Source: a virus. From it: a stretch of DNA of 27,786 nucleotides. Numbering within the stretch: the stretch's first letter is position 1; every line of letters begins with the position of its first letter. Both the position numbers and the translations under genes were made by a program. The stretch lies in the IMG/VR virus record IMGVR_UViG_3300050821_009976, positions 1 through 27,786 of that record, one strand, 5' to 3'. Positions 3,055 to 16,424 of this stretch are shown in pieces. The notes beneath the pieces are model-generated. The model was given only the letters and a program-made list of their open reading frames with translations, was not told the origin of the DNA and made no database searches.

Positions 3055-3071
3055 TCTGGTATTTAACCAGT
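3055..3071 (-). repeat. Early-operon element, copy 1
   Basis: TCTGGT-ATTTA-ACCAGT (plus strand). Near-perfect palindrome, 17 nt before the start of the 34-codon gene at 3037; the only copy outside the main operon. Confidence 0.75.
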
Positions 3072-3364
3072 TTTAAAGTTTCAACCGGCAGGCGTGGATG
3101 TCCTAAAAACCAGTCGTTTTAAAGACTGCAAAACCACTCCCCATCTACTTCAGCCTATGACTTACAATCTTTAGACGAGTTGGTCACTAGGTACTGGGCT
3201 CTCTTCCCCCTGGACTTGAACTGCGTGCCATCTTTAACTTACACCGTTATCAAGCCGTGTGATCCTCGTCAACTTCAACCGTATAGGGTCTCAGTCCCCC
3301 AGATATTCTTAAACACTAATCACGCAGTACGTGTGTGTAGCTGATCTGAAACAGCCCTTCTTAT

Positions 3365-3404
3365 TGACAAAATGTAAATTACTTGGTTATCGTAGCTTTA
3401 CATT
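3365..3404 (+). promoter_or_regulatory. Probable integrase promoter with 8-bp inverted repeat
   Basis: A perfect -35 TTGACA (3364-3369) is followed after 18 bp by TATCGT (3388-3393), a 4/6 match to -10. The promoter is overlaid by AATGTAAA (3371-3378) and TTTACATT (3397-3404), exact inverted repeats 18 bp apart. One arm lies in the spacer and the other just downstream of the -10, so a bound repressor or excisionase could block transcription. Confidence 0.45.
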
Positions 3405-3476
3405 TCGTGGTGGAAATACACTAAGGCCTCAATCAAGATCTCGTCAAGGAGAAAAGGTTGGGGCTTTATTGTTTTT

Positions 3477-4358
3477 ATGGTAAAGTTTTTTATGCTACTT
3501 GACGAGCTGTTTCAATCCTGTTTTAAAGATCATTGGGATTCGCCCAGATATAATCTTTCAGGCCATTCCACTGAAGTGAAAGCCAAATACAGAAATCATA
3601 TTAAACCAGTTTTTGGTGAATTAGATTATCTAACAATAACCAGAGTTCAAATTAGAGATTTTCATAAGTCATTTTCAAAGACACCAGTTACTGGAAACAG
3701 ACTTTTAGAAATTATTTCAAAGCTTTACAAGTTTAGTATAGAACGTGAATGGAATGCTGCAGGTTATAATCCAGTGGTCGGTGTAAAGCATTTTACAGAA
3801 AGAAAGAGACGTAGATATGGTTCGGAAGCGGAAATCAAAAAAATTGGTGAAGTCCTCGAAAAGTACTATGACTTATACCCCACTGAGATTGCGTTCCTTT
3901 ATACGCTCATGTTCACGGGTGCTAGGCCCCGCTCCATTGAAAGGGCAAGATATGATGAACTATCTGAATCAGGCGATTTCGGAGTCCTTATCTTTGATGG
4001 TAAAAGCACAGAGGCCACCGGTGATCCGGAAAGCGTTATCCTTCCACCTAAAATAATGGAACTCATTAAAAAGCTTCCAAAGCGCCAAGACGGGCTTATT
4101 TTTGGAATACCACTTCCAGGCTATCTTTGGAGAAAAATTCGAAAGGAAGCAGGGTGTGAGGACTTATGGGCGAGAGATTTTAGGCGTACCTTTGCTAGTG
4201 TAGGGATGTCAAACAAGGTTGATATGAAAGTAATAGGACAATTATTAAATCATCACTCGATGCAAACGACCCTTCGTTACAGTTTACTCGATGATTCTGC
4301 TAGATTAGAAGCTGTAACTGCGATATCTGCAAAGCTTGATTCAATACTTAAAAAATAG
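3477..4358 (+). CDS. int: Tyrosine recombinase (phage integrase)
   Basis: 293 residues. An N-terminal SAM-like core-binding domain (about 5-105) precedes the catalytic domain. Catalytic elements are Arg150 in FTGARPRS, a probable Lys176 (FDGKST), Arg236 in RDFRRTFAS, His259 in QLLNHHS and Tyr268 in TTLRYSLL. The usual His of box II is replaced by Arg233, a tolerated variation. The start at ATG 3477 keeps a normal N-terminal length; no strong ribosome site is visible next to it. The stop codon directly abuts a tRNA-Asn gene, so that tRNA is the obvious candidate attachment site. It is alone on its strand here, with its own promoter region. Integrates and excises the phage genome. Confidence 0.93.
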   Translation: MVKFFMLLDELFQSCFKDHWDSPRYNLSGHSTEVKAKYRNHIKPVFGELDYLTITRVQIRDFHKSFSKTPVTGNRLLEIISKLYKFSIEREWNAAGYNPVVGVKHFTERKRRRYGSEAEIKKIGEVLEKYYDLYPTEIAFLYTLMFTGARPRSIERARYDELSESGDFGVLIFDGKSTEATGDPESVILPPKIMELIKKLPKRQDGLIFGIPLPGYLWRKIRKEAGCEDLWARDFRRTFASVGMSNKVDMKVIGQLLNHHSMQTTLRYSLLDDSARLEAVTAISAKLDSILKK

Positions 4359-4432
4359 TCCGAATTGGTGAAATGGCATCACTCACGGCTGTTAACCGTG
4401 CATTTCTGGTTCGAGTCCAGAATTCGGAGCCA
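4359..4432 (+). tRNA. tRNA-Asn (anticodon GTT)
   Basis: A full cloverleaf can be drawn: acceptor TCCGAAT pairs with ATTCGGA (7/7), the anticodon stem CACGG/CCGTG encloses loop CTGTTAA (anticodon GTT), and the T-arm TCTGG/CCAGA encloses TTCGAGT. The D-arm is short (GTG/CAC). CCA is encoded. The D-arm sequence TTGGTGAAATGGCA is of a type often seen in phage-borne tRNAs, which argues for a phage gene rather than a piece of host chromosome. It begins on the base after the integrase stop, so it may also be, or overlap, attP. Confidence 0.9.
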
Positions 4433-4433
4433 T

Positions 4434-4532
4434 TTACATATTCAAAAGCTTGCTATAAACCTGAACATTCAAAGACCAAATGTAACCTAACACGCTAAAG
4501 CCAATTACCAATATAGTGTCTAAAGTTCTCAT
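4434..4532 (-). CDS. Tiny single-pass membrane protein, last gene of the early operon
   Basis: A 32-residue ORF (MRTLDTILVIGFSVLG) from ATG 4532 with GGGGGTGA as a good ribosome site. Residues 5-20 are hydrophobic, predicting one membrane helix. Its TAA (4436-4434) comes 2 bp from the 3' end of the tRNA-Asn gene on the other strand. A degenerate palindromic element, GCTTGC-N5-ACCTGA, lies in its last codons (4448-4464). Function unknown. Confidence 0.55.
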   Translation of the reverse strand: MRTLDTILVIGFSVLGYIWSLNVQVYSKLLNM

Positions 4533-4597
4533 AAATCACCCCCTGTTAAACATAGGATAGTAATAAATTGTCAGGGAATTATGAAGAAGATGTTACT

Positions 4598-4813
4598 TTA
4601 AAAAGGTCTCAAACCAGTCTCAATTTCAAAGTTCTTTTCTCTAATTCGTTTTCGGAGATCCTTTATCTTCTTCCATAAAATAGGTAATCCTATCTCTTCT
4701 GCCTGAGCATACGGGATAGCTTTCATACCGCATTCACAAATAACATCACCGTCGAACATAATTGGCTGATGCTCTTCGCCGCACGCCCAGACCTTGATCT
4801 TCATTAAATCCAT
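4598..4813 (-). CDS. Small Cys-rich, zinc-ribbon-like protein
   Basis: 71 residues if it starts at ATG 4813 (MDLMKIKVWACGEEH); GGAGG lies only 3 nt before it, so ATG 4804 (MKIKVWACG) is an alternative. The frame stays open upstream to a TTG at 4912, but that part overlaps a palindromic element and other short frames and is probably not translated. Cys residues in WACGEEH and ICECGMK suggest a small metal-binding ribbon; the C-terminal half is a basic helix (KKIKDLRKRIREK). The end, ETGLRPF, is the translated footprint of the element at 4602-4618. Family not recognised. Confidence 0.6.
   Translation of the reverse strand: MDLMKIKVWACGEEHQPIMFDGDVICECGMKAIPYAQAEEIGLPILWKKIKDLRKRIREKNFEIETGLRPF
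4602..4618 (-). repeat. Early-operon element, copy 2
   Basis: AAAGGT-CTCAA-ACCAGT. Encodes the T-G-L-R-P end of the gene at 4598-4813. Confidence 0.6.
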
Positions 4814-4819
4814 ATTCCT

Positions 4820-4836
4820 CCAGGTGTTTAGCCTGT
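4820..4836 (-). repeat. Early-operon element, copy 3
   Basis: CCAGGT-GTTTA-GCCTGT. Six bases before ATG 4813. GCACTTTTACA directly upstream (minus strand) is shared with copy 17. Confidence 0.75.
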
Positions 4837-4857
4837 GTAAAAGTGCGGGCCAGGCAA

Positions 4858-4893
4858 CTATTCTGGCCTTAACAGAGTCTCTAGCGTTTGCAT
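4858..4893 (-). CDS. Eleven-codon micro-ORF ending in an element-like footprint
   Basis: MQTLETLLRPE, from ATG 4893 to TAG 4858. Its last codons (LETLLRPE) align with the C terminus IETGLRPF of the 71-residue gene just downstream, because both lie over versions of the palindromic element. It may be a decayed cassette remnant rather than a working gene. Confidence 0.25.
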   Translation of the reverse strand: MQTLETLLRPE

Positions 4894-4936
4894 GGGGTAT
4901 AAGCCCTTTCAACGCCGCCGCACAATTGTTTCAATC

Positions 4937-5074
4937 CTATTTAGGTCTATAATCTAACCCGAAGAAACATGCTAAAACCAAATAATAGGTGGCCCTTGGA
5001 ATATCCATTTTCTGATAGAAAACGAAACTACCTAGGGCACAGGTAATAACTAAAAGCCTAACTATTGTTTGCAT
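4937..5074 (-). CDS. Small hydrophobic membrane protein
   Basis: A 45-residue ORF (MQTIVRLLVITCALGS) from ATG 5074 to TAG 4937. It has two hydrophobic segments, about residues 4-19 and 30-40, separated by a basic loop (YQKMDIPRAT), so a two-pass membrane protein is plausible. Its start codon sits in the right arm of a degenerate palindromic element (5074-5091), as in several well-conserved junctions. Function unknown. Confidence 0.5.
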   Translation of the reverse strand: MQTIVRLLVITCALGSFVFYQKMDIPRATYYLVLACFFGLDYRPK

Positions 5075-5111
5075 CTGTCTTTCAATCCTGCATCAAAATA
5101 GCTTCGCCGCA

Positions 5112-5180
5112 CTATGAGCCAAGGTTTCTAAAAGAATAACCTGCCATATCTTGATATTTAAGTTTAAAAAATCGTCCCAT
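5112..5180 (-). CDS. Very short basic peptide ORF
   Basis: A 22-residue ORF (MGRFFKLKYQDMAGYSF) from ATG 5180, 4 bp after the stop of the gene upstream, ending TAG at 5112. It follows a shortened palindromic element (5189-5203). It is too short to judge by composition; only its place in the series of coupled micro-genes supports it. Confidence 0.35.
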   Translation of the reverse strand: MGRFFKLKYQDMAGYSFRNLGS

Positions 5181-5184
5181 ATAT

Positions 5185-5376
5185 TCACGCAGGCCTCACC
5201 TGTTTAAATCTTGGATACATTCCATGTAGCTCTTCTCTGCTTATCGTTTTAGTTGGCATACACTTATTTTCTAAACACCATAAATAATAAGCCCTTCGTA
5301 TTTCGTTAAACTCTGTTGGCTCTTTATATCTTCGTCTGTTGGCCATTTTGGCGCCCTTACTTTTCTTTTTGTTCAT
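5185..5376 (-). CDS. Small basic protein, unknown
   Basis: 63 residues from ATG 5376, whose first base is the outermost base of a palindromic element. An internal ATG (MANRRRYKEP) at residue 11 is a possible alternative. The sequence is strongly basic at the N terminus (NKKKSKGAK, RRRYK) with a helical, aromatic middle (FNEIRRAYYLWCLEN); nucleic-acid binding is possible but not shown. The start overlaps the tail of the upstream gene by 20 bp in a different frame. No family recognised. Confidence 0.6.
   Translation of the reverse strand: MNKKKSKGAKMANRRRYKEPTEFNEIRRAYYLWCLENKCMPTKTISREELHGMYPRFKQVRPA
5189..5203 (-). repeat. Short-spacer variant of the early-operon element
   Basis: GCAGGC-CTC-ACCTGT: same half-sites with a 3-bp instead of 5-bp spacer, at the 5185 gene end. 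Confidence 0.5.
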
Positions 5377-5587
5377 CTGGTTCTAGACCTGTGTCACTGA
5401 GCGCTTTTTTCGCGCACTTAATAATTCCGCTATGAATGTTAAGCAAGCTGGTTTTATCCCAACTTCCTTCTGTTATTGATATTGCCTGTAAAGCGCCAGC
5501 AAGCCTTTTCACTTTAAACCTAAGTTCCTCGCAGTCTCTACATTCGCAATGCCCGCATCCGTCAGGGCGTTGGTGATCACTTCGCAT
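5357..5587 (-). CDS. Small Cys-rich N-terminal protein, unknown
   Basis: 76 residues from ATG 5587, a codon embedded in the palindromic element CCAGATG. The N terminus has Cys/His residues CGHCECRDC (residues 11-19), like a small metal-binding motif, followed by a helix (LRFKVKRLAGALQAI) and a second helical region. The C terminus DTGLEPDEQKEK is the translated form of the next element. It overlaps the upstream gene by 11 bp. No family recognised. Confidence 0.62.
   Translation of the reverse strand: MRSDHQRPDGCGHCECRDCEELRFKVKRLAGALQAISITEGSWDKTSLLNIHSGIIKCAKKALSDTGLEPDEQKEK
5376..5392 (-). repeat. Early-operon element, copy 4
   Basis: TCTGGT-TCTAG-ACCTGT. Encodes T-G-L-E-P at the end of one gene; its last minus-strand base is the A of the next gene's ATG (5376). 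Confidence 0.8.
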
Positions 5588-5786
5588 CTGGTTTAGGACC
5601 TGTGTGAATTTTATCCCAGTCTCTTAAAGCTAAGGTCATTCTAATGTCTGGCTCTTGGTTATTTATCATTCTTGCCACGGCTAGTATTCTGCGAAGACTT
5701 TCGATTTCTTGTGGCATTTTTTGAACATCACCACTTTGTAGCGAAACAAAGTCTTTCCATAACTTCTCATAGAAACCTTCGTTCAT
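5577..5786 (-). CDS. Small helical protein, unknown
   Basis: 69 residues from ATG 5786 (MNEGFYEKLWKDFV). A longer frame to 5813 is possible, but ATG 5786 overlaps the TGA of the upstream micro-gene (ATGA), the usual coupling here. The protein is mostly helical with acidic and basic residues mixed (EIESLRRILAVARM). It ends HTGPKPDAK over a palindromic element. No family recognised. Confidence 0.62.
   Translation of the reverse strand: MNEGFYEKLWKDFVSLQSGDVQKMPQEIESLRRILAVARMINNQEPDIRMTLALRDWDKIHTGPKPDAK
5587..5603 (-). repeat. Early-operon element, copy 5
   Basis: TCTGGT-TTAGG-ACCTGT. Encodes T-G-P-K-P and runs into ATG 5587 of the next gene. Confidence 0.8.
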
Positions 5787-5908
5787 AATAATATCCCAGC
5801 GGTTAAAGCACAAAGCCCAGCTATGATATGACTCCAGTCGTGAGACGGCATGGCTTGAAAAGCTATTGTAAGATTAACCCCTGCTATTAGCCACATTACC
5901 GCACTCAT
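5783..5908 (-). CDS. Tiny two-segment membrane protein
   Basis: A 41-residue ORF (MSAVMWLIAGVNLTIAF) from ATG 5908 to TGA 5783, with 4-bp ATGA overlaps on both sides. Two hydrophobic segments (residues 3-18 and 27-41) flank a polar turn (PSHDWSH), so it could be a helical hairpin in the membrane. The exact overlaps at both ends fill what would otherwise be the only gap in this part of the operon, which strongly supports translation. No palindromic element marks its 3' end. Function unknown. Confidence 0.65.
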   Translation of the reverse strand: MSAVMWLIAGVNLTIAFQAMPSHDWSHIIAGLCALTAGILL

Positions 5909-6207
5909 TTTGATTCAGGCTCCGAACCAGTTTTAATACCTATCTCATCGTCCTTTAAAATAGAGACGGCGACATAAGTCGTTTCCTGTGCCTCAATCTC
6001 TCTTATAAGTCTACGCATCGCTATAAAGTCTTCTTTCATATTGTGTTCATCTTCATAGGTCATCCAGTCGGGACGGCTCTCTCCGAAAGGGTATTTCTTG
6101 TGCGACCGCATAACTTCATCGTCTGGATCACTGGAATTCATATTCAGGGTAATGTCGGTGCTACATTTCCAACCATCGAATATTCTTTTGAGCACTGAAA
6201 GTTTCAT
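5905..6207 (-). CDS. Small acidic protein, unknown
   Basis: 100 residues from ATG 6207, overlapping the upstream stop by 4 bp (ATGA). It has a short N-terminal helix (MKLSVLKRIFDGWKC), an acidic middle (SSDPDDEVMRSHKKY), a helical segment (NMKEDFIAMRRLIREIEA) and a C terminus KTGSEPESK produced by the palindromic element at 5915-5931. There is no signal peptide or membrane segment. I do not recognise the family. Confidence 0.62.
   Translation of the reverse strand: MKLSVLKRIFDGWKCSTDITLNMNSSDPDDEVMRSHKKYPFGESRPDWMTYEDEHNMKEDFIAMRRLIREIEAQETTYVAVSILKDDEIGIKTGSEPESK
5915..5931 (-). repeat. Early-operon element, copy 6
   Basis: TCAGGC-TCCGA-ACCAGT. Encodes T-G-S-E-P; 6 bases before ATG 5908. 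Confidence 0.78.
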
Positions 6208-6566
6208 TTCTTCTCCGCAGGCTGAGAACCTGTTTCAAACACATATTGGTCCTTGGTGTAGGCTTGATATTTCCCGCCCTCAAGTTCCCAATCGTAAACC
6301 TCGCCTTTACAGGCCACACATACGTTTAATTCATTCCACCTTTTTCTTAGACGGTGTGGAATGCAATTATTCTTTTCACAATCTCCAACGGTATCAAAGA
6401 CAATTTCTACACGAACCTGGCAAGTAAAGAACTTTTCACAGGTGCCGCATTGAAGTTCTTTGATATCTTCATCTCGGCATCGCATATCCTCTGTGTCGTA
6501 TTTTGTAGAACAATAGGGGCAAACAGGTTGCCTATTGCCCCAACATTCATCTGCCGGAAACTTCAT
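6204..6566 (-). CDS. Multi-Cys zinc-ribbon-like protein
   Basis: 120 residues from ATG 6566, which has the best ribosome site of this region (AAGGAAG, 6 nt) and overlaps the stop of the preceding micro-ORF. The frame continues upstream to 6644, but that stretch overlaps other translated frames. Three Cys pairs are visible: CPYC (about 17-20), CGTC (about 41-44) and CVAC (about 84-87), plus further single Cys residues, consistent with one or two zinc ribbons. The C terminus ETGSQPAEKK covers a palindromic element. A nucleic-acid or protein-binding accessory role is likely but unproven. Confidence 0.62.
   Translation of the reverse strand: MKFPADECWGNRQPVCPYCSTKYDTEDMRCRDEDIKELQCGTCEKFFTCQVRVEIVFDTVGDCEKNNCIPHRLRKRWNELNVCVACKGEVYDWELEGGKYQAYTKDQYVFETGSQPAEKK
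6217..6233 (-). repeat. Early-operon element, copy 7
   Basis: GCAGGC-TGAGA-ACCTGT. Encodes T-G-S-Q-P; 9 bases before ATG 6207. Confidence 0.78.
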
Positions 6567-6610
6567 TTTACTTCCTTCTGTGAAACAGGTGGATAACCAG
6601 GCAAAATCAT
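6563..6610 (-). CDS. Fifteen-codon linking micro-ORF
   Basis: MILPGYPPVSQKEVK, from ATG 6610 to TGA 6563. It overlaps the stop of the frameshift extension (ATGA at 6610-6607) and the ATG of the next gene (ATGA at 6566-6563), so it bridges the two genes exactly. LPGYPP is the element footprint of 6585-6601. The same frame is open without a start codon for 21 further codons upstream (through KCCDGSSKWWGY), so it may be the end of a decayed gene. Confidence 0.35.
   Translation of the reverse strand: MILPGYPPVSQKEVK
6585..6601 (-). repeat. Early-operon element, copy 8
   Basis: ACAGGT-GGATA-ACCAGG. Encodes P-G-Y-P-P of the 15-codon ORF; 18 bases before ATG 6566. Confidence 0.78.
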
Positions 6611-6795
6611 GTAGCCCCACCATTTTGAAGAGCCATCGCAGCACTTAAATAATTGGCCGCGCCCATTGCTTGGTTAGTTGCTAGCCCCATTCCTTGAGCA
6701 GAGTAATTTTGTCCGCTCATAGTATTGGTTAAGTAAGTCTGTGGATATGCGCTCACGGTAGTAGTCGAGCCGGTATAAACCGGAGCGCTCTTTAA
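6607..6795 (-). CDS. Start-less -1 frame extension, predicted frameshift product
   Basis: Sixty-two codons open in the -1 frame directly after the slippery site at the end of the 6792-6980 gene, reading LKSAPVYTGSTTTVS and ending LQNGGAT at TGA 6609-6607. There is no ATG before residue 26 and no ribosome site at the internal ATG or GTG. Composition is rich in Ala, Gln, Asn, Thr, Tyr and Ser, without membrane segments, similar to small virion or accessory proteins. With the upstream gene it gives a 124-residue fusion. The alternative is a pseudogene fragment, but the perfect frameshift signal argues against that. Confidence 0.6.
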   Translation of the reverse strand, partial: LKSAPVYTGSTTTVSAYPQTYLTNTMSGQNYSAQGMGLATNQAMGAANYLSAAMALQNGGAT

Positions 6796-6801
6796 AAAGG
6801 G
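6749..6801 (-). promoter_or_regulatory. Programmed -1 ribosomal frameshift signal
   Basis: On the minus strand the heptamer C CCT TTT (6801-6795) is in the correct frame (XXY YYZ) and immediately precedes the TAA stop. After a 6-nt spacer (6794-6789), GCGCTC (6788-6783) can pair with GAGCGC (6754-6749). Inside lies a second stem, CGGT-TTAT-ACCG, extendable to CCGGT/ACCGG. Slippery site, spacer and downstream structure all match the known requirements for -1 frameshifting. Confidence 0.65.
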
Positions 6802-6980
6802 CGAACGGCTACCTCACATTGGTCCAGCTTCTTAGCGTATTTCTCTGGGATATCACGAGCGGCTAAAAGTGTTGCGGCTTGAATAGTTTCGGCCATAACA
6901 GTTTTAACTGGTACGATAAGTTCCGAAGGCTTTTCATCGTCTTTGTAATTAAACATCACTGCGTATTCGAATAACTTCAT
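6792..6980 (-). CDS. Small conserved-looking phage protein, zero-frame product
   Basis: 62 residues from ATG 6980, with AAGGAG as ribosome site, 1 nt after the upstream stop. The protein MKLFEYAVMFNYKDD... has an alternating strand-helix pattern (SELIVPVKTVMAETIQ, then TLLAARDIPEKYAKKL) and ends VAVRPF. This overall pattern, with a C-terminal VRPF, looks like a small protein I have met in environmental phage genomes, but I know no function for it. It is not marked by a palindromic element at its own end; instead it ends in the frameshift signal, so two products (62 and 124 residues) are predicted. Confidence 0.7.
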   Translation of the reverse strand: MKLFEYAVMFNYKDDEKPSELIVPVKTVMAETIQAATLLAARDIPEKYAKKLDQCEVAVRPF

Positions 6981-6981
6981 T

Positions 6982-7209
6982 TCATTCTCCTTTTATAGTT
7001 TTTGATTCAGGTTGGAAACCAGATTTACATTCAGGGCAGTACCATGTGCCAAGCCCAGGTTCTTCTTTATCTTCAACAAAGTTATCGGGCCATTTGTCTT
7101 TTGACGATGTTCTCGTGCTACCTATAAAGGACCCAGAACTTAAATCATGAGTATGTGGCGCTAGACCATAATGCGGAAACATTTCACAATCTTCGTTCTT
7201 ACAACTCAC
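6982..7209 (-). CDS. Small Cys-rich protein, unknown
   Basis: 75 residues from ATG 7209 (ATGA overlap upstream). It begins MSCKNEDCEMF and later has WYCPECKSGFQ, so CxxxxC and CPEC could form one zinc ribbon around a polar middle (DLSSGSFIGSTRTSS). SGFQP is the footprint of the element at 7007-7023; the tail TIKGE carries the AAGGAG used by the next gene. No family recognised. Confidence 0.6.
   Translation of the reverse strand: MSCKNEDCEMFPHYGLAPHTHDLSSGSFIGSTRTSSKDKWPDNFVEDKEEPGLGTWYCPECKSGFQPESKTIKGE
7007..7023 (-). repeat. Early-operon element, copy 9
   Basis: TCAGGT-TGGAA-ACCAGA. Encodes S-G-F-Q-P; 26 bases before ATG 6980. Confidence 0.75.
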
Positions 7210-7541
7210 TTCTCATCCTTTTCAACTGGTTCCGGACCAGAATCATTTTGTAAAAACTCACCCGCCATTAGTAAATGAAAGTCGCGGGATGGGAGGTTCT
7301 TAATTTCCTCGCCTAAAGTATACGCGCCAAACTGTGAGCCTAATGCGGCTCTCATCCCATTGGCATATGGTATAATTAAAACGTAGTCAAAAAAGTGATC
7401 CCCTGAATGTTCAATACAAAGAATAAGATCACCATCTTTCAAGCGCCCTTTCATCCAGCAGTTGCCAACTCTAGAGAAATCATCCGGGCTTACTTTGTAA
7501 ATGCTTCCTATTGAAGCGCCTTGGCCCCAAGATCTAGTCAT
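7206..7541 (-). CDS. Hypothetical early protein
   Basis: 111 residues from ATG 7541, overlapping the upstream gene by 8 bp. It looks like a compact alpha/beta domain: KDGDLILCIEH, HFFDYVLIIPYANG and DFHLLMAGEF form strands or helices. It has no membrane segment. The C terminus NDSGPEPVEKDEK overlies the element at 7225-7241. The central part (KGRLKDGDLILCIEHSGDH) recalls SH3-like barrels, but this is only an impression. Function unknown. Confidence 0.62.
   Translation of the reverse strand: MTRSWGQGASIGSIYKVSPDDFSRVGNCWMKGRLKDGDLILCIEHSGDHFFDYVLIIPYANGMRAALGSQFGAYTLGEEIKNLPSRDFHLLMAGEFLQNDSGPEPVEKDEK
7225..7241 (-). repeat. Early-operon element, copy 10
   Basis: ACTGGT-TCCGG-ACCAGA. Encodes S-G-P-E-P; 15 bases before ATG 7209. 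Confidence 0.8.
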
Positions 7542-7929
7542 TTTTTACTCCTGGTTTTGAACCTGATTCACAGCCAAGATATTTACATTCTAGCTTGTGA
7601 CCAATACGTTCAATCGTTTCAACCCCGCCTTTAATGTTCTCGGGAGATGCCATTTCAAATTTAATTAGTGAAATTCTTACTTTCCATAAATCGTCTATGG
7701 TTGGTAATATCGTGATTAGCAGGCTTGGCAAAATAAGGCTAAGAGCTATAATTTTTGCAGTCCTTCTGTATCTGGCCCATGCTTCAGTGCGCTCCTTGCT
7801 TTCATAATTACAAGAACCAATATCGGTAATAGGCAGGCCAAAAAATAAAGTTATAACGGATACAAATAATCCAGCGCATCCCAAGCCTTTTATATTGGAT
7901 AAAATAGCGAGCAGAATTTCGTATTTCAT
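7534..7929 (-). CDS. Two-pass membrane protein, unknown
   Basis: 131 residues from ATG 7929 with ATGA coupling. Two membrane helices are clear: about residues 17-36 (GCAGLFVSVITLFFGLPI) and about 58-76 (IIALSLILPSLLITILPTI), separated by a basic loop (YESKERTEAWARYRRTAK) expected inside the cell. A C-terminal soluble part follows, with ESGSKPGVKND over the element at 7550-7566. It is the largest membrane protein of the early operon. A role at the host envelope, for example superinfection control, is possible but unsupported. Confidence 0.65.
   Translation of the reverse strand: MKYEILLAILSNIKGLGCAGLFVSVITLFFGLPITDIGSCNYESKERTEAWARYRRTAKIIALSLILPSLLITILPTIDDLWKVRISLIKFEMASPENIKGGVETIERIGHKLECKYLGCESGSKPGVKND
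7550..7566 (-). repeat. Early-operon element, copy 11
   Basis: CCTGGT-TTTGA-ACCTGA. Encodes S-G-S-K-P; 8 bases before ATG 7541. Confidence 0.78.
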
Positions 7930-8174
7930 TTTTCATCCTTCTTTTCAACAGGCTTAAGACCTGGCTCAATCTTTAATCTATAAGCACAATACTCGTCGCT
8001 CAATAAAACGTATTTCTCCGCAAGCGCACAGTATTTCTCATTTAGTGCAATGTATTTTTCCTGAAGTGGTCGTTCATAAATTAACGGCTCTTGGCCAGCT
8101 ATGTGATTAACCACTTTAGCTCCGATACACCAATCACAAGTGGGGCTATAGTCTTGTGGATGATTGTGCTTCAT
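7926..8174 (-). CDS. Small protein with repeated EKY heptad, coiled-coil-like
   Basis: 82 residues from ATG 8174 (ATGA overlap). The N terminus has His/Cys residues (MKHNHPQDYSPTCDWC). The middle contains a short internal repeat (QEKYIALNEKYCALAEKYVLLSDEYCAY) with EKY at seven-residue spacing, predicting a helix or coiled coil. The C terminus EPGLKPVEKKDEK covers the element at 7948-7964. The heptad repeat suggests self-association. Family not recognised. Confidence 0.62.
   Translation of the reverse strand: MKHNHPQDYSPTCDWCIGAKVVNHIAGQEPLIYERPLQEKYIALNEKYCALAEKYVLLSDEYCAYRLKIEPGLKPVEKKDEK
7948..7964 (-). repeat. Early-operon element, copy 12
   Basis: ACAGGC-TTAAG-ACCTGG. Encodes P-G-L-K-P; 18 bases before ATG 7929. 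Confidence 0.78.
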
Positions 8175-8383
8175 TTTTCCTCTTTCACTGGTACATTACC
8201 TGTTTTATTTTCCATGAACCAAGTCCAAGCCATAAACAAACCTTCGTCTAGTTTCTCCATTGGAGAATAATTAAAAGTCTGGTCACCGATAGTGACCTCT
8301 GTGTCCGTGATATAGATTTTCCTGTTCAGCCTATGTGCCAACTCAAAAAGTCCTTTTAAAATATACTCGCAATCGACCGTCAT
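8171..8383 (-). CDS. Small alpha/beta protein, unknown
   Basis: 70 residues from ATG 8383 with GGGTG 5 nt upstream. An N-terminal helix (YILKGLFELAHRLN) is followed by a beta hairpin (KIYITDTEVTIGDQTFNY) and a second helix (EGLFMAWTWFME). The end KTGNVPVKEEK overlies the element at 8187-8203. It is soluble and compact; function unknown. Confidence 0.62.
   Translation of the reverse strand: MTVDCEYILKGLFELAHRLNRKIYITDTEVTIGDQTFNYSPMEKLDEGLFMAWTWFMENKTGNVPVKEEK
8187..8203 (-). repeat. Early-operon element, copy 13
   Basis: ACTGGT-ACATT-ACCTGT. Encodes T-G-N-V-P; 12 bases before ATG 8174. Confidence 0.8.
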
Positions 8384-8390
8384 AATTCAC

Positions 8391-8407
8391 CCAGGGTATT
8401 AACCAGT
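8391..8407 (-). repeat. Early-operon element, copy 14
   Basis: CCAGGG-TATTA-ACCAGT. Contains the stop of the mini zinc ribbon (T-G-stop); 7 bases before ATG 8383. Confidence 0.72.
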
Positions 8408-8497
8408 TTTACATTTCGAACAATATTTCGGCTTCGGTGCTTCTACCGAAACAAGTAGTCGTTTTTTACATTTAAAACATTCGTATGGCTTTTTCAT
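8399..8497 (-). CDS. Mini zinc-ribbon protein
   Basis: A 32-residue ORF (MKKPYECFKCKKRLL) from ATG 8497 to TAA 8399. Two CxxC knuckles (ECFKC and YCSKC) about 18 residues apart form a complete four-Cys zinc ribbon with a basic surface. Such mini ribbons often bind nucleic acid or a protein partner. The start codon lies in the element at 8497-8513; its own C terminus KTG-stop lies in the element at 8391-8407. The intact Cys pattern in so few codons makes this ORF convincing. Confidence 0.72.
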   Translation of the reverse strand: MKKPYECFKCKKRLLVSVEAPKPKYCSKCKTG

Positions 8498-8513
8498 CTG
8501 GTTGTTAGCCTTT
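8497..8513 (-). repeat. Early-operon element, copy 15
   Basis: TCTGGT-TGTTA-GCCTTT. Contains the stop of the membrane ORF at 8505 and touches ATG 8497. Confidence 0.7.
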
Positions 8514-8597
8514 GTAATGAATCCAAAGCCATGCGCCTATCATAGCGTAGGCATAAATCAAATAAGGGATATATGGTTTCCAATCATTCAGGTTCAT
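8505..8597 (-). CDS. Tiny single-pass membrane protein
   Basis: A 30-residue ORF (MNLNDWKPYIPYLIYAYA) from ATG 8597, a codon lying inside a palindromic element, to TAA 8505. Residues 9-27 form a Tyr/Ile/Trp-rich membrane helix ending in HYKG. It overlaps the upstream gene by 14 bp and ends 8 bp before the start of the mini zinc ribbon, inside the next element. Function unknown. Confidence 0.58.
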   Translation of the reverse strand: MNLNDWKPYIPYLIYAYAMIGAWLWIHYKG

Positions 8598-8766
8598 TGC
8601 CTGTCGTAATCCTTCTGACATAAAGTTCTAAATCAAAATTAGGATGAGCATTGTTTATATGCAATATTTCCCAAGCTAAAGGCTGTTCTTTATCAGTCCT
8701 AACCAGTCGGTCAAAAACTTTAAGGACTTCTTGTCCTAGAGCCAAACAATATTCATCACTTTTCAT
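8584..8766 (-). CDS. Small helical protein, unknown
   Basis: 60 residues from ATG 8766 (MKSDEYCLALGQEVLK). An upstream in-frame ATG at 8841 would add 25 residues, but those lie over the real end of the preceding micro-gene in another frame, and ATG 8766 sits at the usual place in a palindromic element. The sequence is helical (QEVLKVFDRLVR) and ends ITTGNEPE over the element at 8588-8604. No family recognised. Confidence 0.62.
   Translation of the reverse strand: MKSDEYCLALGQEVLKVFDRLVRTDKEQPLAWEILHINNAHPNFDLELYVRRITTGNEPE
8588..8604 (-). repeat. Early-operon element, copy 16
   Basis: TCAGGT-TCATT-GCCTGT. Encodes T-G-N-E-P and contains ATG 8597 of the next ORF in its spacer. Confidence 0.75.
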
Positions 8767-8890
8767 CTGGTATATCACCTGTTGTAAAAGTGCTGGGTGG
8801 ATTTTCCACCCGCGCGTTGGCGTGTAAGAGTTGCCATTCAAGGCAGCCTATGTTCCGCGTGAACAACCGCAGCACATTATCAAATTTCAT
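8756..8890 (-). CDS. Small basic protein in a hidden frame
   Basis: A 44-residue ORF (MKFDNVLRLFTRNIG) from ATG 8890 to TGA 8756, overlapping its upstream neighbour by 11 bp and its downstream neighbour by 11 bp. It ends TTGDIPDEK, the standard footprint of a palindromic element, which picks this frame out over the two others open in the same stretch. It contains LRLFTRN and LEWQLLHANARVE. The DNA near its end (GCACTTTTACA) recurs at 4840-4850. Function unknown. Confidence 0.6.
   Translation of the reverse strand: MKFDNVLRLFTRNIGCLEWQLLHANARVENPPSTFTTGDIPDEK
8766..8782 (-). repeat. Early-operon element, copy 17
   Basis: TCTGGT-ATATC-ACCTGT. Encodes T-G-D-I-P of the hidden 44-codon gene and ends in ATG 8766. 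Confidence 0.8.
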
Positions 8891-9059
8891 CTTCGTTAAT
8901 CTGTCTGTATTTGAGGACCAAAGAACCTTCTACAACTTTAAAGATCTTAACTCGACCCTCTTCTTTGTTTCTCATCAGATCAACTTTCATAATATTTTTG
9001 TCCCAGTAGCCATATTGAGTTTCGTCGTTCACTTGAACCAGATAGACAGGGGTTTCCAT
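8880..9059 (-). CDS. Small beta-rich protein, unknown
   Basis: A 59-residue ORF (METPVYLVQVNDETQYGY) from ATG 9059, with AAAGGAAG 5 nt upstream, to TGA 8880. Alternating strands (PVYLVQVND, GRVKIFKVV, SLVLKYRQI) suggest a small barrel. It has no membrane segment and no element footprint at its own end. A palindromic element lies 13 nt before its start (9073-9089). Function unknown. Confidence 0.65.
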   Translation of the reverse strand: METPVYLVQVNDETQYGYWDKNIMKVDLMRNKEEGRVKIFKVVEGSLVLKYRQINEDEI

Positions 9060-9072
9060 AACTTCCTTTCAA

Positions 9073-9089
9073 ACAGGTCAGAGACCTGT
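9073..9089 (-). repeat. Early-operon element, copy 18
   Basis: ACAGGT-CAGAG-ACCTGT, a perfect 6-bp inverted repeat. Encodes T-G-L-stop of the 26-codon gene after ERF; 13 bases before ATG 9059. Confidence 0.82.
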
Positions 9090-9158
9090 CTCACTTTTCC
9101 ATAACTCGCGTAATTCCATTGCCACAATCAATATAAGACATCCCCAGAAATAACCCAT
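9078..9158 (-). CDS. Tiny single-pass membrane peptide
   Basis: A 26-residue ORF (MGYFWGCLILIVAMELRE) from ATG 9158, sharing one base with the ERF stop (TGATG), to TGA 9078. Residues 2-14 are hydrophobic and the rest is charged (ELRELWKSETGL). Its last codons, ACA GGT CTC TGA, lie in the perfect palindrome at 9073-9089. Coupling to ERF and the element footprint support it. Confidence 0.5.
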   Translation of the reverse strand: MGYFWGCLILIVAMELRELWKSETGL

Positions 9159-9838
9159 CACGTCCCCTTTTCAAGCAGCGTTCCTTCGATGCTTCTTATT
9201 AAATAATCGTAGTTGAATTTAGTGAGTTCTTTAGTCGACTCTATTTTAAACCGCAATTTCATAAATTCTTTAACCTTGTCTGTAGACCAATTGTGTTTAT
9301 TAGCGATGGCGAATAGACGCTTAATCTGAGGCTCAGTCACTAAGGCCGTTGAGTGTTGGTTAGAATCATGCCCAACCCTATTAAAGCGATCACTGGCGGA
9401 GTTATTACTATCCTTTAGGCTAGGAATTTTCCCGCCGAGAACCTCGGCGGTAGTAGCCGCATTCCCATCATCATCTGCCGTACCAACTGCTGCCAATGCC
9501 AAGACAGAATACCTCTTGGTATATGTGAGTGAAGATCCCAATCCCTGATCAGTTCCCACCTTATTTATTACCGGTAATTCAGTGGAAACCCATTCCCCCG
9601 AAGTGTGAAGAAATATGGTTTCCATTATTAGGTGGCCAGCTTCATTAAAGTGAGTTGGGTGGCTTATCCAGATATCATTGGCATTAAGAACCTTTTTTAT
9701 TTCTTCTATAACATCATCATACTCGGCATAGTCGCTTTTAAAGTGAGGGTTTTCGCCCCTCTTAGGAATAGGTTTTATGAGCTTTTGGCATCTAATCAAG
9801 ATTGGGATTATCTTTTTAAATGTTTGCGATGTTTTCAT
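9158..9838 (-). CDS. erf: ERF-family single-strand annealing protein
   Basis: 226 residues from ATG 9838, which overlaps the upstream stop (ATGA); an in-frame ATG three codons earlier (9847) is less likely. The ERF superfamily core is clear: NPHFKSDYAEYDDVIEEIKK near the N terminus, then ISHPTHFN, METIFLHTSGEWVST and GSSLTYTKRYSVLALAAVGT, followed by the DDDGNAA turn. ERF proteins anneal complementary strands in phage recombination and help circularise or repair the genome. The C-terminal quarter (VTEPQIKRLFAIANKHN) is the domain often attached in phage versions. It is the only clear DNA-recombination protein of the early operon; I see no helicase, polymerase or SSB here. Confidence 0.9.
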   Translation of the reverse strand: MKTSQTFKKIIPILIRCQKLIKPIPKRGENPHFKSDYAEYDDVIEEIKKVLNANDIWISHPTHFNEAGHLIMETIFLHTSGEWVSTELPVINKVGTDQGLGSSLTYTKRYSVLALAAVGTADDDGNAATTAEVLGGKIPSLKDSNNSASDRFNRVGHDSNQHSTALVTEPQIKRLFAIANKHNWSTDKVKEFMKLRFKIESTKELTKFNYDYLIRSIEGTLLEKGT

Positions 9839-10107
9839 TTTGACCAACCCTTCTTCATCTGTTCAAAGCGCCTACTAACCTTCTCTTCTTCACTCAGCAT
9901 TTCGGTTTTATCTTCGCCGGTTATGGGGCACTCGAAGTATCCTTTTTTGTCCATCATTCCGATTGCAAGGCCAACGATATCGACGTTAGTTAGATAGCAC
10001 CCAACTAAGTACATGATTGCACTTTCGGTTATGTCTTCTGGCTTTTCTCCAAAGAGAGTTGTTAAATCTCTTTTAGCTCTTTCACGTAATTCTAAAATGT
10101 CGCTCAT
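9835..10107 (-). CDS. Small acidic/helical protein upstream of ERF, unknown
   Basis: 90 residues from ATG 10107 (ATGA overlap). It is mixed helical (LELRERAKRDLTTLFG), with a hydrophobic stretch (SAIMYLVGCYLTNVDIVGLAIG, about 28-49) that could be a buried helix pair rather than a membrane segment, and a Cys in ECPITGED. It is tightly coupled to ERF on both sides of the junction, so an accessory role in recombination is possible. I do not recognise the family. Confidence 0.6.
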   Translation of the reverse strand: MSDILELRERAKRDLTTLFGEKPEDITESAIMYLVGCYLTNVDIVGLAIGMMDKKGYFECPITGEDKTEMLSEEEKVSRRFEQMKKGWSK

Positions 10108-10368: not shown

Positions 10369-10638
10369 TTAACTAACTTTATTGCCTTTTTTAAGGCGAT
10401 CTACAATTGCATGTATTGCATAGTCCAAAGAAGGACCCCTTTTAATATTACATTTTTGGCATACCGGCACAACATCCAGAGGCCTCGAATAAAACCTGTG
10501 ATCATAGCTTCTAGCGGCTTTCCCACAATCAACACATAACAGTGTTTTGGGGTCTGCTAGCGTCCCATTCCTCCTGGCTTTAGCTACCGCGCTATAGGCC
10601 TTAGAAGCTGATGAACTATGCACCTTTCTTCTTTCCAT
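10369..10638 (-). CDS. HNH-like zinc-knuckle protein
   Basis: 89 residues from ATG 10638, overlapping the preceding gene by 23 bp. Two zinc-binding pairs frame the core: CVDC (35-38) and CQKCN (60-64), with DHRFY (46-50) and the PLDVVPVC phrase between them. This C-x2-C...DHR-x2-Y...C-x2-CN-x2-RG pattern is that of short phage HNH or endonuclease VII-like proteins. A second catalytic His is not obvious, so nuclease activity is uncertain and a purely structural zinc protein is possible. Position early in the operon suggests a role in phage DNA processing. Confidence 0.7.
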   Translation of the reverse strand: MERRKVHSSSASKAYSAVAKARRNGTLADPKTLLCVDCGKAARSYDHRFYSRPLDVVPVCQKCNIKRGPSLDYAIHAIVDRLKKGNKVS

Positions 10639-10771
10639 CTTTTAATGCCTTTATTATTTCTTTCATAACTGCCTTGCGGCAGATATTGCTTATCTTAAGA
10701 TTGTATTCAGCAATCGCCTTAGCCATGGCCTCCGAGACCTTAAACGTTTTTAGAAGCGTGTAGTTTTTCAT
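10616..10771 (-). CDS. Ribbon-helix-helix-like regulator, first gene of early operon
   Basis: 51 residues (MKNYTLLKTFKVSEA) from ATG 10771 to TAG 10616. A short beta strand (YTLLKTFKVS) is followed by two helices (EAMAKAIAEYN and ISNICRKAVMKEIIKAL), the length and layout of Arc/CopG-type ribbon-helix-helix DNA-binding proteins. The tail GKKKGA is basic. The gene is the first of the leftward operon and appears leaderless, as many phage repressor genes are. It is a candidate autoregulator, and possibly the reader of the 17-bp elements, but neither role is shown. Confidence 0.6.
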   Translation of the reverse strand: MKNYTLLKTFKVSEAMAKAIAEYNLKISNICRKAVMKEIIKALKDGKKKGA

Positions 10772-10778
10772 ACTTTTT

Positions 10779-10831
10779 AGTATAGTCCTTTATTTTTGGA
10801 AGTCTATACCTTTTTTCTGGTATATACCTTT
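10779..10831 (-). promoter_or_regulatory. Early leftward promoter with repeated operator-like motif, leaderless start
   Basis: Minus-strand -35 TAGACT (10806-10801, 4/6) and -10 TATACT (10784-10779, 5/6) are spaced by 16 bp. The ATG at 10771 lies 7 nt after the -10, so transcription should start at or next to the initiation codon. TATACCTTTTT occurs twice on the plus strand, at 10805 and 10823 (18-bp spacing). The 10-bp palindrome GGTATATACC lies at 10819-10828. A variant of the early-operon element, TCTGGT-N4-ACCTTT, lies at 10816-10831. Confidence 0.5.
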
Positions 10832-10871
10832 TTAATATGGCATACTATTCTTGTAGTTAATTGGAGGGTTT

Positions 10872-11543
10872 ATGAAATTATTATCTTTAATCTTGGTTCT
10901 CTTCTCTCTCGGGTGTGCAGGGCTTCCAGCAGATCCTTGCAAGATCATTACTCCTGGGTCAAGCGTTAATGTCTGGTCCTTTGGTGATTCCATCACTGCG
11001 GGGGCAGGAGCTGGCCACGCATGCCTTGGTTATCAAGCCTTATTTACTGAAGACATTGGTGCTAATTCCCAAGACGTAGCCCTCTCTGGAACCCCTCTAA
11101 CTGTAGAATTCCAGTTTATAATGAGACTTAACTATTCCAATGGCATTGATATCAACACACTTTTAGCAGGCTTTAACGATGTATCTTTCTATGGAGTTGA
11201 CCCAACTCACTTGGCTTTGTTTGAATACGATTTAACTCAAAGCCTTCTCCATTTGAGTTCTTTAGGTAAAATGACTTTAGTCGGAACAACTCTTTATATG
11301 AGTCCAGAAATGCAAGCCGCTCATTATCCCATGCATACCAACTCAAACGTGGATCAATATGTTTCTATCATTAAACAGGTAATCAACCAGTTGCAAGGCC
11401 AAGGGTTCACCAACCTTTATCTTGTGGACACAAACGCAGTTTTTGACCCGATGACAATGAGTTCAAGTGACTTTCATCCATCTGCTTATGGCCACCAAGT
11501 TTTAGCAAATGCGTTTAACCAAGTTTACCAAGCCAACAAATAA
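10872..11543 (+). CDS. SGNH/GDSL-family hydrolase lipoprotein
   Basis: 223 residues with GGAGGG before ATG 10872. The N terminus is a lipoprotein signal (MKLLSLILVLFSLGC; lipobox cysteine at 15). SGNH blocks are present: block I GDSIT with Ser40, block III AGFND with Asn102, and block V SDFHPSAYGH with His202 and a neighbouring acidic residue Asp200. The usual spacing is D-x-x-H; here it is D-x-H. The enzyme should sit at the outside of the host envelope and cleave an ester, for example O-acetyl groups on glycans. It is first in the rightward direction, opposite the early promoter and apart from the virion genes, so lysogenic conversion or receptor masking is likely. Confidence 0.85.
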   Translation: MKLLSLILVLFSLGCAGLPADPCKIITPGSSVNVWSFGDSITAGAGAGHACLGYQALFTEDIGANSQDVALSGTPLTVEFQFIMRLNYSNGIDINTLLAGFNDVSFYGVDPTHLALFEYDLTQSLLHLSSLGKMTLVGTTLYMSPEMQAAHYPMHTNSNVDQYVSIIKQVINQLQGQGFTNLYLVDTNAVFDPMTMSSSDFHPSAYGHQVLANAFNQVYQANK

Positions 11544-14714: not shown

Positions 14715-16155
14715 TAGTTTCGCTAGATACTACAAAGAAATTGTCTCTCAAAAACCTTTCGATACGAATGATCTATTCGATCCTAAATTTCCTCAGCAAA
14801 AGAATTTCGTAGAAGATCCAGCAAAACTAAAAGCTCTATGGTGTACAAGACGAGCTTCTAAGTCCTATGTTGCAGGTCTTTATATGGTTAAGGAATGTTT
14901 AGATAATCCTGGGGTAAATTGTTTATTCATAGGCCTTACTCGTCTCTCTGCTGAAGGCATTATCTGGAAAGATATCTTAAAAGTAATAAATAGAACTCAT
15001 AAACTTGGCGCAACTTTCAACGGCACCACATTAACTATGACATTTCCAAACGGTTCAATGATCTGGGTAACTGGCGTTGACGCTGATGAAGATGAGATGA
15101 ATAAGCTTTTAGGGAAAAAGTACAGACTTGTTTGCTTAGATGAATCTTCTCTCTATACGATTAATCTTACAAGGCTAGTTTATGGTATTTTAAAACCTGC
15201 GGTAGCTGATCCCAATAAAGACGGAGAGAGGGGAACAATATGCATGATGGGGACGAGCTCTAACTTTACACAAGGACTATTCTTTGAAATTACCAATAGA
15301 AGAGAACCCGGTTGGTCTCTACATACTTGGACTGCTCTTGATAATCCTTTTATCAGAGATCAATGGCAAGAAGAGCTAGACGACATTAAGGCCAATAGGC
15401 CTATGTTTATGGAAACACCACTCTTTAAGCAATGGTATTTAAACCAGTGGGATATCGATACCGAGAAACTCGTTTATAAGTTCAATCAAGATAAGAATCT
15501 ATTTGATAAGCGCCCTTTGAATGTGAAAGTGGATGCTTGGTCTTTTGTCTTGGGCGTCGATCTAGGATATGAAGACGATTCAGCTTTTGTTCTGTGTGCC
15601 TTTCATGAGAACGACCCAGTTCTCTATATCGTCTCAACCTATAACAAGAAGCATATGGACATCACCGATGTCGCAAACAAGATCAAGGAATACCAAAGGC
15701 TTTACTCTATAGGTAAGGTCATTGTGGACGGCGCAGATAAGCAGTCTGTTGAAGAGATGCGTAGACGCCATGGTGTGCCCCTTGAAGCTGCAGAGAAACA
15801 AGGGAAGTCAGACTTCATAGAATTGCTAAACGCAGAGCTTATCCAAGCGAAGATCAAGATTAATAACAAATGCACCAACCTAATTAACGAAATGATGGGT
15901 CTAGTCTGGAAGACAACTGGCGACACAATCGATATTCCACGCAAGGAACACCCTTCATTGCCGAACCATCTCTGTGATGCGATGCTATATGCGTGGCGTT
16001 ATTGCTATTCATACATGGCTGAAGCGGTTGTTAAGCGTCCAGTAATGGGAACCAAAGCTTGGCAAGATGAAGAAAATGTAAAAATCTGGGAAAAAGAACG
16101 TGAAAAGCTCCAAGAAGAATACAATTTGAACAAATTTGGCGATGATTCTTACTAA
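14704..16155 (+). CDS. terL: Terminase large subunit
   Basis: 483 residues. The ATPase half has a Walker A variant CTRRASKS (47-54), where the lysine and serine bind phosphate, and a Walker B LVCLDE (142-147) with the catalytic Glu147. The C-terminal RNase H-like nuclease has its acidic metal ligands in GVDLGYEDD (284-292), VIVDG (339-343) and HLCDAMLYAW (422-431). Length is normal. Packages and cuts phage DNA at the portal. Overlaps the TerS-like gene by 11 bp. The full set of active-site residues is present. Confidence 0.94.
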   Translation: MSRDSFARYYKEIVSQKPFDTNDLFDPKFPQQKNFVEDPAKLKALWCTRRASKSYVAGLYMVKECLDNPGVNCLFIGLTRLSAEGIIWKDILKVINRTHKLGATFNGTTLTMTFPNGSMIWVTGVDADEDEMNKLLGKKYRLVCLDESSLYTINLTRLVYGILKPAVADPNKDGERGTICMMGTSSNFTQGLFFEITNRREPGWSLHTWTALDNPFIRDQWQEELDDIKANRPMFMETPLFKQWYLNQWDIDTEKLVYKFNQDKNLFDKRPLNVKVDAWSFVLGVDLGYEDDSAFVLCAFHENDPVLYIVSTYNKKHMDITDVANKIKEYQRLYSIGKVIVDGADKQSVEEMRRRHGVPLEAAEKQGKSDFIELLNAELIQAKIKINNKCTNLINEMMGLVWKTTGDTIDIPRKEHPSLPNHLCDAMLYAWRYCYSYMAEAVVKRPVMGTKAWQDEENVKIWEKEREKLQEEYNLNKFGDDSY

Positions 16156-16156
16156 T

Positions 16157-16180
16157 ATGGCCAACTCGTACCCTAATTAG
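16157..16180 (+). other. Seven-codon micro-ORF over a repeated intergenic motif
   Basis: ATG GCC AAC TCG TAC CCT AAT TAG follows the TerL stop by 1 base. The same pattern (ATGGCCAA-NN-CGTAC) recurs at 22374 after the major capsid gene. A hairpin TACCCT-N6-AGGGTA (16169-16186) covers its end. It could be a coupling leader or simply a structured spacer. Confidence 0.3.
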
Positions 16181-16193
16181 AGGGTAACTACAG

Positions 16194-16424
16194 ATGCTCC
16201 CATTCCTAAAGAATAAACACGAAGGTTCTATAAGTGAAACGCCTGATCACATCAAGCGTGAACATGACAAGGACTCCACTGAAGAATATGACATGCTTGA
16301 ATCAGCCGCCGAGGACCTTATCTCTGCTGTGCATTCCAAAGATGTCAAATCCGTTTGTAGTGCCCTTAGAGCCGCATTTCAAATGTTAGATATGGAACCA
16401 CACGAGGAAGGCCCACATGAGTAA
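16194..16424 (+). CDS. Small acidic protein after terminase
   Basis: 76 residues from ATG 16194. An acidic, polar N terminus (SISETPDHIKREHDKDS) is followed by a helical unit (DMLESAAEDLISAVHSKDVKSVCSALRAAFQMLD) and the tail PHEEGPHE. Small proteins with this helical unit are common between the terminase and portal genes in environmental phages; the role is unknown. The stop overlaps the next ATG by 8 bp. Confidence 0.68.
   Translation: MLPFLKNKHEGSISETPDHIKREHDKDSTEEYDMLESAAEDLISAVHSKDVKSVCSALRAAFQMLDMEPHEEGPHE

Follow-up and report, generated by a model that had tools for sequence, protein, structure and literature searches.

The early region of a 27,786-base stretch of viral DNA (IMG/VR record IMGVR_UViG_3300050821_009976, positions 1 to 27,786; hereafter the window) carries a palindromic repeat at the junctions of its small early genes. 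A reading of the sequence alone had listed 18 copies between positions 3055 and 9089, and all of these coordinates proved correct. Judging from the sequences, we consider it probable that the copies serve as core sites of a simple tyrosine recombinase encoded by the phage itself, that these sites are orthogonal and arrayed in order, and that early genes would be exchanged through them slot by slot. At six consecutive junctions, a second phage carries the identical site centres in the same order, although by sequence comparison the genes lying between them are unrelated in the two phages. Recombination boundaries between gene cassettes had been the last of three guesses made from the sequence alone. 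The present data support this guess in the more specific form of site-specific recombination with position-specific overlaps.

A dyad repeated at early-gene junctions

Comparison with shuffled sequence, which the sequence-only reading had proposed as a check, bears out the repeat within the window: CWGG-N7-CCWG occurs 21 times as compared to 1.22 ± 1.0 times in dinucleotide shuffles, the largest shuffle yielding four. The enrichment is restricted to a gap of seven, as every other gap from 0 to 15 gives at most one match in the early region. Sixteen of the 18 copies match the motif exactly, while those at 4602 and 8497 each have one changed arm base; all copies keep GG and CC and have A or T at the W positions, just as had been described. 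Searched de novo for dyads, the gene ends of the window likewise yielded the motif (log-likelihood 95.6 versus 23.9 for shuffled sequence), and those of ten relatives yielded nothing comparable.

Aligned on the minus strand, which is that of the genes, the 18 copies give the profile T-N-A-N-A-C-W-G-G-Y-N5-R-C-C-W-G-N-N-N-N-A. The strong T-N-A arm lies on the same side in all 18 sites. This flank had been regarded as a one-sided tail that makes the site directional, and its bases are indeed well conserved (T(-4) in 18/18, A(-2) in 15/18), but a mirror A(+20) is present in 16/18 copies. The repeat is thus an imperfect 25-bp dyad, TNANACWGG-YN5R-CCWGNNNNA, whose left arm is the stronger one, rather than a motif bearing a pure direction mark. 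A profile of 31 sites, comprising the 18 window copies and 13 from the second phage, shows the same 9-bp arms, 7-bp centre and stronger left arm in the second genome too.

The copies are located between nearly all small early genes. The array begins only past the erf gene, and the first five leftward genes as well as the divergent promoter region (10772–10871, scanned with a position weight matrix (PWM)) are free of copies. The sequence-only reading had found no copy with this spacing in the late operon. Confinement to the early operon holds for almost all copies, but not for a near-perfect one at 11375–11391 and two weak CWGGN7CCWG matches at 707 and 19120. The copy at 11375–11391 is on the plus strand (centre TAATCAA, PWM score 25.1) and lies within a rightward gene for a GDSL lipase/lipoprotein, in a reading phase that differs from that of the other copies. 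The second phage has a site after its first rightward gene, at roughly the same place.

Identical site centres in a second phage

A query with the window integrase retrieved one close relative, encoded in IMGVR_UViG_3300038463_000128 (35,696 bp; hereafter G025) and 83% identical at the amino acid level. Its direct terminal repeat, 100 bp or longer, points to a complete circle. G025 contains 12 CWGGN7CCWG matches, mostly at early-gene junctions, and two of the matches flank the integrase gene. The latter is enclosed by sites 4750 and 5692, the TNA of site 5692 being its TGA stop codon. The scan of related phages proposed by the sequence-only reading revealed an array at the early-gene junctions of this phage, but none in 24 records whose large terminase is 48–80% similar.

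To compare the centres, we ran a PWM on G025 that had been built from the window sites alone, with the five inner centre bases weighted zero. In gene-strand orientation, the window sites at 5915, 6217, 6585, 7007, 7225 and 7550 have the inner centres TCGGA, TCTCA, TATCC, TTCCA, CCGGA and TCAAA, and all six recur in G025 at 32033, 32346, 33314, 34083, 34678 and 35147 with their order preserved. In full, the sites in question, all on the minus strand, are 5915–5931 (centre TTCGGAG), 6217–6233 (TTCTCAG), 6585–6601 (TTATCCA), 7007–7023 (TTTCCAA), 7225–7241 (TCCGGAA) and 7550–7566 (TTCAAAA). When Y and R are counted, 42 of the 42 bases of the 7-bp centres are identical in these six consecutive orthologous pairs, as compared to 25/54 (46%) at free arm positions, 52/120 (43%) in the near flanks and 92/240 in the outer flanks. 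The difference between the inner five bases and the free arm positions or the near flanks is highly significant (Fisher p=9e-8 and p=7e-10, respectively). Altogether, seven of 13 G025 sites bear a window centre, whereas 100,000 column permutations gave a mean of 0.62 and a maximum of five; in reverse orientation, no centre of the one phage matched a centre of the other. The spacers, which had been thought to differ freely, are all distinct among the 18 sites of the window, but six of them are identical in G025.

The two phages otherwise have little in common. A phmmer comparison of all open reading frames (ORFs) recovered the integrase (E=2e-168) and beyond it only weak short matches, none of them between proteins of the shared slots. 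Blastn aligned two stretches, namely the integrase gene and 39 nt around window site 7225 (G025 site 34678), and tblastx aligned the integrase alone. The integrase is thus the only clearly common gene. The slots of the window hold zinc-ribbon-like and unknown proteins, whereas those of G025 include a DNA methyltransferase-like product and a Gly-Ser-Tyr-Asp repeat protein, names being assigned by eye for products that had no family search. Such Gly-Ser-Tyr-Asp repeat genes occur in otherwise different phages: G025 has one (locus L136, about 16100–16360), and phage G003 has five tandem copies with near-identical junctions (locus L111, about 26680–27960 in record coordinates). In the comparison of arrays, G003 had been a false lead that arose from tandem copies of one gene.

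A single centre, CCGGA, is duplicated in G025, and none is in the window. Its copies at 34986, where the right arm is broken, and 34678 flank a gene that has no counterpart in the window slot; the centre of window site 7225 thus has its inner five bases also in the degenerate site 34986. By eye, a broken TCTCA copy likewise adjoins site 32346, near position 32247. Moreover, a 17-nt leader, AAACTATAAAAGGAGAA, follows the site with centre TTCCA in the window and that with centre CCGGA in G025, while shuffled controls reach 11 nt. Its position behind different centres fits reshuffling.

Searches for further arrays were conducted with several queries. When viral contigs were scanned strictly for the motif, 66 loci but no further array came up. 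The Erf query had one relative (38%), the protein encoded at 7206–7541 had one at 46%, which is devoid of the tail, and the protein encoded at 6207–6566 had none. In genome contigs, alignment of the terminase gave no match and alignment of the integrase gave only a Nitrosovibrio prophage (36%). Four single perfect palindromes, as compared to 0.30 expected, are present in phages with 36–44% identical integrases, and three of the four reside in the C-terminal codons of small-terminase-like genes (TGSKP, TGSKP and SGSEP). Of 179 permuted control palindromes, five reach at least four, and the encoded peptide may explain the match, so these single copies are suggestive only. Perfect palindromes of the ACAGGT or TCTGGT type, one per phage, lie at 1702 in G028, 36140 in G029 and 16162 in W01 (MW202898), each within the C-terminal codons of a gene that resembles a small terminase and precedes the large terminase; the integrases of these phages are 41–44% similar.

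Recombinase, gene ends and competing explanations

The proposed recombinase is a simple tyrosine recombinase/integrase of 293 aa encoded at 3477–4358 on the plus strand (phrog_1, E=4e-35), which comprises core-binding and catalytic domains and is devoid of an arm-binding domain. When its structure was modelled and searched with Foldseek, the best matches were XerH, lambda Int 75-356, Tn1549 Int and XerA. At residues 233–236, the catalytic HxxR box reads R-D-F-R, with Arg replacing His in all aligned relatives. Simple tyrosine recombinases otherwise serve dimer resolution and integrons. They are rare in phages, where one survey counted 27 as compared to 410 with an arm-binding domain (PMC8138268). 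The geometry of the repeat falls within that of a tyrosine-recombinase core site (arms of about 9–11 bp, overlap of 6–8 bp). In addition, arms that are conserved and centres that are unique within a genome and identical between genomes fit the rule of overlap identity that governs tyrosine recombinases.

Relative to the upstream frame, all 18 copies are in one reading phase: ACW GGY NNN NNR CCW is read as [T/S]-G-x-x-P near the C-terminus, or the frame stops. Tails of the former kind, given here up to the stop codon, are KTGSEPESK at site 5915, ETGSQPAEKK at 6217, KSGFQPESKTIKGE at 7007, DSGPEPVEKDEK at 7225 and ESGSKPGVKND at 7550. Further minus-strand sites with such tails are 4602–4618 (centre TTTGAGA; tail ETGLRPF; right arm degenerate, CCTTT), 5376–5392 (TCTAGAA; DTGLEPDEQKEK), 5587–5603 (TCCTAAA; HTGPKPDAK), 7948–7964 (TCTTAAG; EPGLKPVEKKDEK), 8187–8203 (TAATGTA; KTGNVPVKEEK), 8588–8604 (CAATGAA; TTGNEPE) and 8766–8782 (TGATATA; TTGDIPDEK). 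In five other copies, again on the minus strand, GGY is followed by TAA at 3055–3071 (TTAAATA), 4820–4836 (CTAAACA), 8391–8407 (TTAATAC, the in-frame TAA lying where the inner centre begins) and 8497–8513 (CTAACAA, left arm AAAGG), and an in-frame TGA lies within the centre at 9073–9089 (TCTCTGA). Behind these stop codons, the palindrome keeps its right half, and T(-4), a third codon position, is conserved in 29 of 31 sites although the encoded residue varies; the constraint therefore acts on the DNA. Several genes of G025 stop before the site, with TAA at -4 to -2.

On the downstream side, the distance to the next start is 0–27 nt in 16 of 18 cases, the two others being 8588, which overlaps a possible ATG start within its centre, and 4602, which lies at 70 nt. 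The final base of sites 5376, 5587, 8497 and 8766 is the A of the ATG. Shine-Dalgarno sequences are mostly found between the site and the next start; at 3055 that sequence and the ATG of a small ORF come after the untranslated site, and at 4820, which is untranslated as well, those of the next gene follow immediately. Ahead of site 6585, two overlapping frames within 6580–6760 (one of 49 aa ending NGGAT, the other QLFKCCDGSSKWWGYMILPGYPPVSQKEVK, both up to the stop) suggest a frameshifted or decayed gene.

Mechanistically, each palindrome would act as a core-type site in which two inverted 9-bp arms (TNANACWGG) provide the binding place of the recombinase and frame a 7-bp overlap. As the overlap is unique to each junction, sites of the same genome would not recombine with each other and the array would stay stable and ordered. 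In a mixed infection, a phage whose corresponding junctions bear identical overlaps would offer matching sites, and one gene or a pair of genes enclosed by two of them could be exchanged in place. An exchanged gene, cut in its last codons, would run in phase into the tail of the recipient or be stopped earlier, and the ribosome-binding site of the next gene would be left intact. The common reading phase would follow from this, since a moved gene must either enter the recipient tail in phase or stop before the site, and exchangeability itself may be under selection. Going one step further, the early region may be a modular rack, every slot of which has boundary sites with a 7-bp address of their own, and co-infecting phages may use the recombinase to swap accessory genes, perhaps ones directed against the host, singly, each in its place and in order; the comparison of the two genomes leaves the chances of this extended reading about even.

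Several observations weigh against recombination by the phage's own enzyme. The array is present in just two genomes, some of its sites are degenerate, and phages with 36–44% identical integrases are without an array. As G025 was found by its integrase, the sharing of this gene is partly by construction; no such selection applies to the array, to the identity and order of the centres, or to the absence of further clearly shared genes. The strong site at 11375 lies inside a gene. As [TS]-G-x-x-P-[VED] yields GG-N7-CC, part of the palindrome could reflect a peptide constraint in the translated copies. Finally, a tyrosine integrase adjoining a tRNA gene is ordinarily read as a lysogeny integrase, and a complete tRNA-Asn gene (4359–4432, plus strand) begins immediately behind the integrase stop codon. 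The T-arm of this tRNA (4406–4420, CTGG-TTCGAGT-CCAG) contains the site core and lacks the outer T/A. We do not rely on it as attP: only the core is present, G025 has no tRNA-Asn sequence, and the match is weak because tRNA T-arms often match GG-N7-CC. No dyad is evident just past the integrase stop in distant relatives. The roughly 370 bp upstream of the integrase gene (3080–3450) contain tRNA-like fragments by eye, no convincing gene and no Rfam match.

The best rival is exchange driven by homology, in which the arms bind some regulator and annealing by an Erf/RecT-type protein at the 11-bp identical core keeps the centres alike. The window encodes an Erf-type single-stranded DNA annealing protein (9158–9847, minus strand; PF04404, E=2e-18), an alternative, homologous recombination function, and G025 encodes a product that is RecT-like by eye; these proteins may exchange genes at short identities. 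Short conserved boundary sequences have also been proposed as a cause of phage mosaicism (PMC3029335), and GG-N7-CC is identical across all six pairs. However, a stretch of 11 bp is very short for such proteins, the identity is centred on the dyad in 6/6 pairs rather than randomly bounded, and paralogous junctions would need no common palindromic arms. That the integrase is the sole clearly shared gene also speaks against this explanation, which we regard as unlikely.

Somewhat less probable still is an operator array, in which a DNA-binding protein of the phage or host acts at every junction to silence the early operon or set its timing, in the manner of stoperators or extended start-associated sequences (ESAS). 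This was the lead of the sequence-only reading, which had pointed to the L5 repressor sites and to the start-associated sequences (SAS) and ESAS. Dyad symmetry, junction placement, single orientation and near-confinement to the early operon are in its favour, and the layout resembles that of ESAS (PMC3203893). On the other hand, the divergent promoter lacks a copy in both phages, and hence no counterpart of the true operator that stoperator systems have at the early promoter is found in 10772–10871 or the corresponding region of G025. SAS (GGGATAGGAGCCC, up to two mismatches) had no match, and the stoperator GGTGGMTGTCAAG had one with two mismatches as compared to 0.83 expected, that is none beyond chance. 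Above all, centres that are not contacted should drift, yet they are shared with G025 in 42/42 positions where free arm bases and flanks do drift. The operon-head proteins are of no help to an operator array either. The first gene of the early operon (10616–10771, minus strand) encodes a 51-aa protein that is ribbon-helix-helix-like by eye, but phmmer detects no homology to its G025 counterpart. The early operons of both phages open with such a 51-aa, by eye ribbon-helix-helix-like protein (locus L135, 4254–4409, in G025), and a single-sequence structure model of the window protein showed one helix and was uninformative.

Selection for a C-terminal peptide tag, [T/S]-G-x-[E/K/Q]-P, on the early proteins, with the palindrome as a by-product of its codons, would account for the single reading phase of the window copies and for the tail TGxxP(x)xxK, and the pattern GGN-NNN-NNN-CCN automatically gives GG-N7-CC. 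We consider this very improbable, and as the whole explanation it is already refuted by untranslated copies. Intact sites with a closed frame or without an upstream gene occur in the window (3055, 4820, 8391, 8497 and 9073) and in G025 (4750, 5692, 31312, 32346 and 33314), and for the same reason the common frame was rejected as proof of a tag. Conservation of T(-4) irrespective of the residue and the identity of synonymous centre positions between the phages likewise speak against a tag. An RNA hairpin, the second of the original guesses, would affect the translation, stability or processing of the mRNA and can practically be dismissed: although inverted arms lie right upstream of Shine-Dalgarno sequences and two copies (9073 and 7226) score as terminator-like, albeit on the plus strand, the W pair at positions 2 and 14 does not covary (AA 6, TT 5, AT 5, TA 2 in the window; AT 5, TT 5, AA 3 in G025), being non-complementary in 11/18 and 8/13 copies as under independent choice, and terminator-like elements number nine as compared to 6.3 in shuffles.

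Relation to known systems

We class the array with tyrosine-recombinase gene-module systems, without making it a member of any named one. The dif modules of Acinetobacter Rep_3/OrfX plasmids are alike in that their accessory genes are bounded by sites for tyrosine recombinases, in which the arms are conserved and the centres vary (PMC13141974). Recombining pdif sites have 6-bp spacers that are identical or differ by one base, and plasmids have had single modules replaced where the spacers on both sides were alike (PMC13141974). However, pdif sites have distinct XerC and XerD arms, a 6-bp spacer and alternating orientation and are served by chromosomal enzymes. In the phage array, both arms follow one motif, the centre has 7 bp, the early-operon sites all face one way (18/18 in the window), the enzyme is encoded by the phage and the sites are located in C-terminal codons of a phage operon. 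No match to the pdif sequence CGNATAA-N6-TTATGTTAA was found with up to three mismatches.

Integrons, which have structured attC sites (core GTTRRRY) and a recombinase with an IntI-type insert, also place a recombination site 3' of each small gene, employ one simple tyrosine recombinase and have exchangeable content, whereas the phage array consists of short double-strand dyads with position-specific centres in fixed order. No attC-like element was recognised, although no scan was aimed at attC, and IntI ranks 29th in the Foldseek list for the window integrase, weaker than XerH or lambda Int. The core-type arms of lambda Int measure about 9 bp. Lambda core sites likewise consist of inverted arms around a 7-bp overlap (PMC8371274), but the array of the window has at least 18 different sites in a single genome and an enzyme without an arm-binding domain.

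Among regulatory repeats, the ESAS of cluster K phages are inverted repeats upstream of the starts of non-structural genes, are not RNA hairpins and sometimes share a base with the start codon (PMC3203893, PMC12699233). They differ in having 17-bp arms, a variable spacer of 4–13 bp and a coupling to SAS; moreover, ESAS go with gene families, whereas the centres of the phage array go with the slot, in which the genes are unrelated. The stoperators of cluster A phages resemble the array in copy number, placement at gene junctions and single orientation, but are 13-bp asymmetric sites (GGTGGMTGTCAAG) bound by a known repressor (PMC3029335), whereas the array motif is a dyad.

Mosaic joints of phage genomes are found at gene boundaries, which is usually explained by illegitimate recombination followed by selection, or by rare conserved boundary sequences. 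If our reading is correct, at least one phage lineage possesses a dedicated, address-coded system that places such joints exactly between genes while order and phase are kept, together with an enzyme whose natural site pairs are numerous and orthogonal. In the synthetic method of serine integrase recombinational assembly, orthogonal overlaps are used to assemble parts in order and to replace genes (PMC3936721). While the latter is man-made and relies on a serine integrase, the array would be its natural counterpart based on a tyrosine recombinase, and a dedicated machine for phage mosaicism.

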